Shown: piece by piece, positions 48,905 to 50,752 of the stretch
Layout: the number at the start of each line of letters is the position of its first letter
Numbering within the stretch: the first letter of the stretch is position 1
Origin: Streptomyces sp. NBC_01351
GTDB lineage: Bacteria; Actinomycetota; Actinomycetes; Streptomycetales; Streptomycetaceae
Length of the DNA: 64,000 bases
Direction of reading: 5' to 3'
Assembly (NCBI RefSeq): GCF_036237315.1
Contig: NZ_CP108356.1
Span: 1 to 64,000, forward strand
Position numbers and translations under genes: made by a program
Notes under the pieces: model-generated
What the model was told of the DNA's origin: nothing
Database searches by the model: none
Seen by the model: only the letters and a program-made list of their open reading frames with translations

Positions 48905-48926
48905 CTAGATGATCGATTCCAAGGGG

Positions 48927-49451
48927 TCAGTGATCGTAGGCGGTCAGCTCATCGGCCAGCAGGTCCATCAGGAGCCCGTTGTGCCAGCTGCCGTCCGGTC
49001 CGCGTTCGTAGTTGCGCATGATGCCGACCGGGCGGAAGCCGACCTTGGTGTAGCAGCGGAGGGCGGCGGCGTTGTCCGCCGCCGGATCGATCACCAGGCG
49101 GTGGAAGCGGTGATCGATGATGAGGTGCCGGGCCAGGGTGCGGACGGCGTCGGTGCCCAGGCCCCGTCCGTGCATCGCCGGGTCCAGATAGAGGTCGATG
49201 TTCGCGTGCCGGTAGTCCGGATCGGTCTCCTCGCCCCACTGGATGCCACCGACCGTGCGGCCGTCCAGCTCGATGACCAGCAAGCTGACCCCGGGATCGC
49301 CGAGGTCGCCGGCGACCTCCGCGGCAAGGTCCGCGTCGCCACGCCAGCGCGCGTACACCTCGGGCTTCGCCCGGATGGCGGCCAGCGCCGGAACGTCGGA
49401 GGGGACAGCAGGCCGGAGGGTCACCTCGGCGCCGTACAGAATCGTCTCCAT
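48927..49451 (-). CDS. GNAT acetyltransferase, AAC(6')-like
   Basis: 174 residues from ATG 49451 (METILYGAEVTLRPAVPSDV). GNAT motifs: LLVIELDGRTVGGIQWGEE, DIDLYLDP-like NIDLYLDPAMHGRGLGTDAV (acetyl-CoA loop with HGRGLGT), RFHRLVIDPAADNAAALRCY and KVGFRPVGIMRNYERGPDG. This layout is that of AAC(6')-I aminoglycoside acetyltransferases and their relatives; the true substrate is not shown. The last six residues (LTAYDH) and stop come from the IS982 end repeat. The gene is inside the 48905-50460 unit, the context of a mobile resistance gene. Confidence 0.8.
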   Translation of the reverse strand: METILYGAEVTLRPAVPSDVPALAAIRAKPEVYARWRGDADLAAEVAGDLGDPGVSLLVIELDGRTVGGIQWGEETDPDYRHANIDLYLDPAMHGRGLGTDAVRTLARHLIIDHRFHRLVIDPAADNAAALRCYTKVGFRPVGIMRNYERGPDGSWHNGLLMDLLADELTAYDH

Positions 49452-49462
49452 GGACGGGAGGC

Positions 49463-50460
49463 TAACTGATCGATTCCAAGGGATCGGCTGCGCGCATAGG
49501 ACGAGGGCGCCCAACGTCATTGTGTGAAGACAGAGTTGGAAACCCTCGTCACCGCACTCTATGTGAAGACCGACGACCTGCTGAAGGACTCACCGCATCT
49601 CGCTCCGTGGCGGCCGACGGTTGGGATTGCCCCGCAGCTGAGCGACGCCGAGCTGGTCACGCTCGCGATGATGCAGGCCATGCTCGGCTTCACCTCCGAG
49701 GCCAGATGGCTCCGCCACGCCGGCGCTCACCTGCGGCATCTCTTCCCGTACCTGCCCAAGCAGCCCGGCTACAACAAGCGTCCGCGCAAGGCCGCCGACT
49801 TGCTGCGTCGGGTCACCCGACTGCTGGCCAACGACACCTCAATGTGGAGCGACGACGTGTGCATCGTGGACTCCACGCCGGTGGAATGCGGACGCTCGCG
49901 CGAGACCGTCAAGCGCTCTGACCTGGCCGGATGGACAGAATACGGGTACTGCGCCAGCCACAGCCGCTTCTTTTGGGGCCTGCGGCTACACCTGGTGTGC
50001 ACCCTCCGCGGCCTGCCCGTCACCTTCGCCCTGACCGGGGCCAAGGCCGACGAGCGCGAGACCCTGCTGGACCTCCTCTCCGCCGAATCCGGCCTTGTCG
50101 CCGACCGGCCCGGACAGACGCTGATCGGCGACAAGAACTACTTCGGCCGCGACTTCGAACATCAACTGGTCGAGCAGGGCATCCGGCTGCTGCGGCCAGC
50201 CCGCAAGGGCGAGCCGGACCGGCCCGACGCGCCCCTGTTCAAGCCGTTGTGGCAGGTCATCGAGTCGGTCAACGAAACCTTCAAGGGCCAGCTCGATCTC
50301 GAGCAGCACCGCGGACGCACACCCAGCGGTGTCATCGCCCGCGTCATGCAGCGAATCCTCGCGCTGACGGCCGCGATCTGGCACAACGACCACACCCGCC
50401 AGCCCATCCTGCGCTCACTGACCGCCTACGATCACTGACCCCTTGGAATCGATCATCTAG
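49463..50460 (+). mobile_element. IS982-family element
   Basis: Left end with TGATCGATTCCAAGGGATC (from about 49466) and right end whose complement is CTAGATGATCGATTCCAAGG; the shared core is 19 bases with one mismatch. The single transposase gene is intact. The GNAT start lies only a dozen bases outside the left end. Confidence 0.8.
49524..50438 (+). CDS. IS982-family transposase
   Basis: A 304-residue DDE transposase: ALYVKTDDLLKDSPHLAPWR, PQLSDAELVTLAMMQAMLGF, the catalytic Asp in CIVDSTPVECGRS, second Asp in LIGDKNYFGRDFEHQ and the Glu in ESVNETFKGQLDLEQHRGRT. GTG 49524 is the likely start. Full length, probably active. Its last residues (LTAYDH) overlap the right end. Confidence 0.9.
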   Translation: MKTELETLVTALYVKTDDLLKDSPHLAPWRPTVGIAPQLSDAELVTLAMMQAMLGFTSEARWLRHAGAHLRHLFPYLPKQPGYNKRPRKAADLLRRVTRLLANDTSMWSDDVCIVDSTPVECGRSRETVKRSDLAGWTEYGYCASHSRFFWGLRLHLVCTLRGLPVTFALTGAKADERETLLDLLSAESGLVADRPGQTLIGDKNYFGRDFEHQLVEQGIRLLRPARKGEPDRPDAPLFKPLWQVIESVNETFKGQLDLEQHRGRTPSGVIARVMQRILALTAAIWHNDHTRQPILRSLTAYDH

Positions 50461-50583
50461 AAGTCGGCTCCGCTGCTGGTCCTGCCACCCGCGCAGCATG
50501 GCTTCGAACATGGCGGGCTCCGGGTCCAGCGCACGGACGTTGCCTGCACGGACCAGCCGGATCGCACCCGGCACATCTGCCAC
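50461..50583 (-). pseudogene. Tyrosine integrase, N-terminal stub cut by IS982
   Basis: From GTG 50583: VADVPGAIRLVRAGNVRALD, EPAMFEAMLRGWQDQQRSRL, the opening of a tyrosine recombinase core-binding domain. The frame ends exactly at the IS982 right end (50460) and then runs into IS sequence. The rest is not found on the other side of the unit at 48904. Confidence 0.65.
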
Positions 50584-50752
50584 ACCCACCCCACACCTCC
50601 GACGGTTGCACCTAATGCAACATCGTGGCGTCGGATACTCCACCCCAGGTCCAGAACCCCACACCCTCACCTGGACGAGTGACACCCCCGTTCTCAGGTC
50701 GCACCGCACTGTCGGCGGAAGCGACGGAATGATGCGTCCAGCCCAACTCCGC

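Follow-up and report, generated by a model that had tools for sequence, protein, structure and literature searches.

A GNAT acetyltransferase gene inside a putative IS982-family transporter insertion sequence of Streptomyces

Main finding

The AAC(6')-like acetyltransferase gene and the IS982-family transposase gene that lie side by side in the window (64,000 nucleotides from the start of the largest contig in a Streptomyces genome of 8.9 Mb) very probably form one transporter insertion sequence (tIS). The outermost pair of ends is most likely the one on which the transposase of this unit acts, so that the whole 1.56 kb would be mobilised, while an internal left end of the insertion sequence (IS) appears to be in the course of being lost. 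A composite transposon is its probable origin. The argument is built on sequence comparison and draws on the structure of the unit, its recurrence at another locus and the anatomy of its sister copies in the genus.

Structure of the unit

The unit is 1,556 bp long and reads, in order, a copy of the IS982 right end (IRR), the GNAT gene, an internal IS982 left end (IRL), the transposase gene and the IRR, with CTAG at both tips (Table 1). Two properties reported in the preliminary description of this DNA hold on re-examination: the outer ends are perfect inverted repeats, with arms of 43 nt that are 100% complementary and enclose 1,470 nt, and the final LTAYDH and stop of the GNAT gene are the same DNA as the end of the transposase gene. 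The interior of the outer left end resembles the unit's own IRR rather than the IRL consensus (alignment scores 25 vs 5). The transposase scored 171.5 bits against the IS982 model NF033520, above the family cut-off of 130. An IS of 999 bp is still recognisable within the unit, and its left end, absent from the preliminary description, has an altered tip with CTAAC in place of CTAGA; plain copies (e.g. L165, L182 and L185) read CTAGATGATCGATTCC at this position. The CTAG at each tip most likely belongs to the target and not to the element. The unit is present once in its own genome, where the 19-bp tip occurs just at the two unit ends.

Table 1 Features of the unit and its immediate flank (positions in the window)
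Feature	Position	Strand	Basis
Outer left end, copy of IS982 right end (43/43), starts CTAG	48905..48947	-	Repeat comparison
CTAG left, probable 4-bp target duplication	48905..48908	.	Flank comparison
GNAT acetyltransferase, 174 aa, AAC(6')-like passenger	48927..49451	-	Start by homology; Pfam PF13302/PF00583
Putatively IS-derived 3' end of GNAT gene (LTAYDH + stop)	48927..48947	-	Same DNA as transposase end
10-bp spacer, GNAT start codon to internal IRL	49452..49461	.	Sequence
Internal IS982 left end (IRL), 24 nt, 88% to right end	49462..49485	+	Repeat comparison
IS982-family transposase, 304 aa, unbroken ORF, GTG start	49524..50438	+	NF033520; PF01609/PF13612
IS982 right end (IRR), overlaps transposase 3' end	50418..50460	+	Repeat comparison
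CTAG right, probable 4-bp target duplication	50457..50460	.	L186 CTAG, L187 TTAG
5' remnant of site-specific integrase gene adjoining unit	50461..50589	-	End coordinate estimated from L186

The acetyltransferase and its C-terminus

The longest open frame of the GNAT gene spans 48927–49520 (197 aa), and the start was set at the ATG at 49451 because database homologues begin there. Among the NCBIfam AAC(6') models listed, the best score was 176.5 bits for NF000225 (AAC_6p_Strep; cut-off 250), and the protein fell under the cut-off of every one of them. Its best solved relatives are AAC(6')-Ib11 and AAC(6')-Ib (best E 1e-10, residues 69–146). The predicted kinship with AAC(6') enzymes that had been proposed for this gene is therefore fairly expressed as "AAC(6')-like", whereas AAC(6') proper is not established at this score.

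The close relatives P0003, P0006 and P0012 end in ELTD, so LT is native and about four residues (AYDH) would be new. The earlier proposal of a new C-terminus thus stands as regards an IS-derived end and is to be reduced in size from six residues to about four. Four extra residues, of the kinds AYDH, TYGH, AHDH, TDAH and AQDR, are found, in that order, in P0001, the second unit L036 described below, P0002, P0004 and P0005; the tails read LTTDAH in S. specialis, LTAHDH in URMC 129 (P0002) and LTAQDR in DSM 44917 (P0005). An IS-like tail occurs in four (P0001, P0002, P0004 and P0005) of the best 60 of 7,707 homologous proteins. Among GNAT loci (the best 80 of 205 relative-encoding stretches, with the C-terminal tail parsed in 67 of the 80) it occurs in two of the 67, namely L036 and L037 of S. 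specialis. Most of the relatives end otherwise (ELTD, ELE, ELVR etc.), and the expectation that native C-termini differ from LTAYDH holds for most of the 67 parsed tails. The putatively IS-derived tail is older than the window unit, and the junction is compatible with a short CTGACC(G) match shared by the ends of the two genes.

Recurrence of the unit

The GNAT gene lies between the same two ends in different flanking DNA at locus L036 of Streptomyces sp. Isolate_45. This copy matches the window unit at 96.9% over 640 bp and 99.1% over 110 bp, and the homology stops at the outer ends. The middle of its transposase gene is deleted, so that little except the final 28 codons survives beside the right end in a unit of 743 bp. 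L036 provides the second locus with other flanks that the preliminary description had called for, and it excludes the objection that no other locus exists. That description had proposed that a detached IS982 right end was placed beyond the GNAT gene to form a two-ended, gene-carrying unit. The second right end and the two-ended structure are confirmed, the route of placement is a reconstruction taken up below, and the unit turns out to belong to a family whose passengers are many and varied.

In L037 of S. specialis the GNAT DNA is ~91% identical to that of the window. Over the final codons of this gene and the bases that follow, 27 of 43 positions agree with the IS right end, the highest agreement within the locus, and 22 of 25 bases match up to and beyond the stop. 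A 42-bp sequence 5' of the GNAT start resembles fused IRL/IRR tips, and each half is unique among 17,002 locus positions at so good a match. This locus looks like a decayed relic of the unit. A relative with such a tail and no IS nearby had been named as evidence against an IS origin, and S. specialis, one of the relatives with a tail of this kind, retains IS-tip relics. The 20-bp tip at ≤3 mismatches gave no match on either strand in 1,251,184 bases of 78 GNAT loci (L038–L115).

Sister copies in the genus

A whole-unit search in 392 genomes of the genus gave some match in 305, many of them weak, and the exact 19-bp tip was present in 32 of the 392. The comparison was made on 40 hand-picked, near-full-length copies (query ≤600 to ≥1528, down to 73% identity) from 35 genomes including that of the window; as only two candidates per genome were scored, the proportion of units among them is not a census. 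Classed by hand, 20 copies are passenger units with an outer end: that of the window, two each in G380 and G237, and one each in G363, G149, G367, G157, G040, G166, G243, G197, G024, G326, G302, G204, G169, G151 and G334. Two more (G011 and G382) have a passenger by homology, a clear outer end being missing. The rest are 13 plain copies, four ambiguous ones (G023, G255, G366 and G191) and one undetermined (G146). Plain copies measure 994–1012 bp (12 of 13 measured), and gene-carrying units are mostly 1.3–3.2 kb.

An orientation test independent of the hand classing sought the tip at ≤3 mismatches within 2.4 kb of each copy, on both sides and in both orientations. An extra tip on the upstream side, inverted relative to the right end, was found in 21 of 40 copies, and one upstream in the other orientation in none; downstream, the two orientations gave 0 and 2 of 40. 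The transposase match is split into several pieces in 16 of the 40 copies, including 9 of the 20 passenger units, and many units may therefore be dead or unable to move alone.

In 24 units compared, the outer tips match at 17–20 of 20 positions (mean 18.9 of 20), against 17.2 of 20 for the inner IRL in the five units in which it is recognisable. The outer end matches the IRR well past the tip in the window unit, L036, G204, G387 and NBC_01450 and less far in G157, G363, G367 and G149, and in the remaining units it resembles the IRR little past ~20 bp. A distant IS982 copy in G018 (L230:1969-3896; 58% protein identity) has an outer end ~1 kb before its transposase, so passengers may extend past this IS982 subfamily.

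Passenger genes

The passengers of the sister units are diverse (Table 2), and eight types each recur at two loci or more, with homology that begins and/or stops at the ends of the element. The homology of the DUF1203 pair begins 32 bp inside, and in some recurrent copies the transposase end is shortened. The DUF1203 passenger is 91.0% alike in L159 (G204) and L215 (G011), whose transposases are 84.0% alike and are not sisters in the transposase tree; exchange of modules or faster decay is a possible explanation of this discordance.

Table 2 Passenger types of sister units, named from one representative per type and two for the G151 type, with the G237b and NBC_01450 ORFs left out; the G151-type ORF had no Pfam match above cut-off
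Passenger	Source	Basis
Mycothiol-S-transferase	G380; same unit G149, G166	Pfam
DUF4440/SnoaL	G363	Pfam
DNA polymerase III beta clamp (DnaN)	G040; same unit G326	Pfam
NUDIX	G197	Pfam
M15 D-Ala-D-Ala dipeptidase	G024	Pfam
Alpha/beta hydrolase	G302; also G169	Pfam
DUF1203	G204; also G011	Pfam
Imm5-like	G068, outside the 40	Pfam
Hexapeptide-repeat transferase	G387, outside the 40	Pfam
TetR + zinc dehydrogenase pair	G367; also G243	Pfam
HEAT-repeat protein	G157	Pfam
Metallo-beta-lactamase-fold protein	G023 (ambiguous copy)	Pfam
ABATE + annotated DNA alkylation repair protein (Pfam just below cut-off)	NBC_01001, outside the 40; also G209	
Pentapeptide-repeat protein	pSTRVI01, outside the 40	Pfam
Second GNAT	S. 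clavuligerus pCLA1, outside the 40	Pfam

The DnaN paralogue of G040 scored 213 bits against TIGR00663, and the units that carry it lie at different sites (L152:2240-4465 in G040 and L153:2461-4684 in G326). Such a transposon-borne clamp could be a drug-resistant copy of the target or an aid to transposition. Passengers of putative resistance type comprise two GNATs, the D-Ala-D-Ala dipeptidase-like enzyme and the pentapeptide-repeat protein, and those scored against NCBIfam lay below its specific cut-offs.

The open frame of the second GNAT (pCLA1, L192:1917-3460) starts within the inverted repeat, where ATGATCAATTCCAAGGGG reads MINSKG, and its true start may lie further into the frame. A plasmid GNAT in L188 ends at an IS tip but sits outside the tip.

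Transposase-deleted derivatives that retain both ends were found twice, in L036 and in L234 of G065 (L234:2315-3126), the latter keeping a G151-type passenger. Separately, a SAM-dependent methyltransferase gene (TIGR00027, 276 bits) at L166:3494-4604 lies between two inverted 118-bp miniature elements derived from IS982. This arrangement, which looks like a transposase-less cassette, is common to nine other loci (L167–L173, L178 and L179) at ~95–97%. Six of the nine lose homology no more than ~65 bp from the outer ends of these miniature elements, and the other three, L170, L178 and L179, lose it before the second element is reached.

Target sites and movement

The window unit cuts a site-specific integrase gene of which approximately the first 43 codons are left. 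An uninterrupted integrase homologue on an S. virginiae plasmid (L186) reads CTAGAAGTCGG, where the window reads CATCTAGAAGTCGG and L187 reads TTAGAAGTCGG; the uninterrupted L186 target already holds CTAG, and L187 holds TTAG. Plasmid matches to the DNA left of the window unit were all short (~90–130 bases, 11 records) and none continued the integrase; the window target is therefore matched on one side only. In L149, CTGG stands on both sides, which fits a 4-bp direct repeat and not a part of the inverted repeat. Several copies have unequal terminal tetramers, and the CTAG flanking the window unit is palindromic. CTAG is a probable 4-bp target duplication, with base-level support from one side of the window unit and one CTGG/CTGG case. 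Reading-frame continuity across joined flanks, tried as a gauge of duplication length, fixed no length, since TAG stops occur within CTAG and many of the sites lie between genes.

The G204 unit occupies a spacer adjoining a gene that resembles, by eye, one for a MarP-type protease. Its joined flanks match in one piece in one of 61 genomes (G019: 1–444, 74%, 8% gaps, weak middle). In G005, G024, G029 and others, the first ~45 and last ~205–225 flank bases lie 33–140 bp apart, and CTAG was not exact in three aligned relatives of this empty site. The joined flanks of the G166 unit had no contiguous empty site in the 61 genomes, the left flank matching over ~190–215 bases in some. At two distant sites, L146 and L147, G380 carries 1,708-bp units that are identical to each other and also have 78 bp in common outside the left end. 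This shared stretch, which the left flank of L158 resembles by eye, may be a repeated target or a further end outside the recognised one.

The orientation test (21 vs 0 of 40) and the empty site support movement as units. By comparison, namely the other flanks of L036, the arrest of homology at the ends and the empty site of a sister unit, the window unit would likewise move as one.

Alternative explanations

An ordinary IS982 beside a GNAT gene, with a stray right-end fragment or a gene conversion on the far side and no joint movement, could also produce the arrangement in the window. The unit is indeed single in its genome, and the internal IRL is recognisable, so that the IS could once have moved alone. 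This coincidence is nevertheless barely credible in view of L036, where the GNAT unit has other flanks and homology stops at the ends, of the passengers in 20–22 of the 40 sister copies and of an orientation bias of 21 to 0 of 40. The C-terminus might instead be a native GNAT tail that merely resembles the transposase end, with the 43-bp identity due to later homogenisation. In favour of this idea, relatives have LT natively and similar tails occur in P0002, P0004 and P0005, but the identity runs past the stop into inverted-repeat sequence common to sister IS copies, and in S. specialis the agreement at 22 of 25 bases through the stop is joined by the 42-bp relic of fused IRL/IRR-like tips upstream. 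A native tail is accordingly quite improbable.

The transposase of ISEcp1 bypasses its own left end for a look-alike sequence past a neighbouring gene. Capture of this type, in which a chance look-alike beyond the adjacent gene was used, would suit the many units whose outer end is IRR-like over no more than its first ~20 bp, and a single IS with an adjacent mobilised fragment is a known class according to the available part of PMC9330008. The outer tips of the 24 units, however, match at 17–20 of 20 positions and no tip was found in 1.25 Mb of controls, so chance sites must be rare; in the window, moreover, the match spans 43 bp through transposase coding sequence. Chance capture is therefore considered unlikely, and the transporter IS with two IS982-derived outer ends is the reading preferred here.

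Origin of the unit

For this transporter IS, the lengths of the outer-end matches and the anatomy of G191 point to a path from two inverted IS copies. In G191 (L201:472-4290), a full IS982 is accompanied, 2.9 kb away, by an inverted transposase 3' fragment (aa 253–304) with an IRR, and the interval encloses a long ORF resembling, by eye, that of a NACHT-type NTPase. G191 is a possible candidate for an intermediate between a composite transposon and a single-IS unit. The window unit probably started as a composite transposon in which two head-to-head IS982 copies, their IRRs outermost, enclosed a gene. One copy would next have been deleted down to its tip, after which the GNAT frame could have read into the leftover tip at the CTGACC(G) match and acquired its stop codon. 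Loss of the inner left end would then have followed.

In the transposase tree, passenger and plain copies interleave, with at least six label changes forced by well-supported branches. The passenger label is also clustered (7 changes vs a shuffled mean of 13.4), and copies with one passenger group together; passenger gains are therefore fewer than copies and indistinguishable from losses. Perhaps one Streptomyces transposase lineage has acted as a gene-capture platform, repeatedly packaging unrelated genes or gene pairs into compact, standard-ended units that include transposase-less cassettes moved in trans. This wider reading is a tentative one, about which some doubt is in order.

Comparison with known systems

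The available text of the 2020 IS982 review (PMC7335449) covers 70 members of 845–1282 bp, none from Streptomyces, with direct repeats of 2–10 bp when present and 57 of 69 members beginning with AC; ~42% of ISCef2 hits came from Streptomyces. The words passenger, tIS and MITE have no mention in its main text as available. The elements described here share with the family the NF033520 transposase, plain copies of ~1 kb, a single ORF and terminal inverted repeats. They differ from the members covered in that text (PMC7335449) in that most units are 1.3–3.2 kb with passengers as against 845–1282 bp, and in that the end begins with CT, or with AT if CTAG is target, where the reviewed members mostly begin with AC.

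Transporter ISs are defined, in the available parts of PMC3129680 and PMC9330008, as IS copies that include passenger genes unrelated to transposition. The GNAT gene between the IS ends in the window and the Pfam-named passengers of the sister units agree with this definition; what sets the present unit apart is the position of the passenger, enclosed by an additional copy of the right end on one side and the worn internal left end on the other. No description of an IS982 tIS was found in the open-access papers searched, and the available passages of PMC9330008, PMC10886379, PMC9484755, PMC11092175, PMC11628540, PMC6542083 and PMC7471000 describe no IS982 element with passenger genes.

L036 and L234, each a gene with both ends and no intact transposase, resemble mobile insertion cassettes as presented in the accessible portion of PMC3913671. 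The window unit keeps its transposase, whereas, according to that portion, MIC231 depends on the transposase of IS231A; the window unit is not a mobile insertion cassette, and L036 and L234 agree with one in anatomy alone. A composite transposon, in which a gene is enclosed by two IS copies in inverted orientation (cf. G191), is the probable ancestor, but the second copy here is reduced to its tip, leaving one IS and a 43-bp end. The passenger itself shares with AAC(6') enzymes the GNAT family and has AAC(6')-Ib11 and Ib as its best solved relatives, although it lies below every listed NCBIfam cut-off for AAC(6').

Transporter ISs and mobile insertion cassettes are already known kinds, and it is to the IS982 family that the gene-carrying branch adds: in the available text of the review (PMC7335449) IS982 appears as a set of simple ~1 kb elements, a picture that the passenger-bearing branch broadens. 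The copies can be read as a series from plain IS through three-ended units, units with worn inner ends and transposase-less derivatives to relics, and the step from an IS to a transporter IS is therefore open to comparative study. If the capture platform is real, it would operate in a genus that produces many antibiotics and carry genes of resistance type, and it would correspond to the IS231/MIC231 modules or, in its effect, to integron cassettes.
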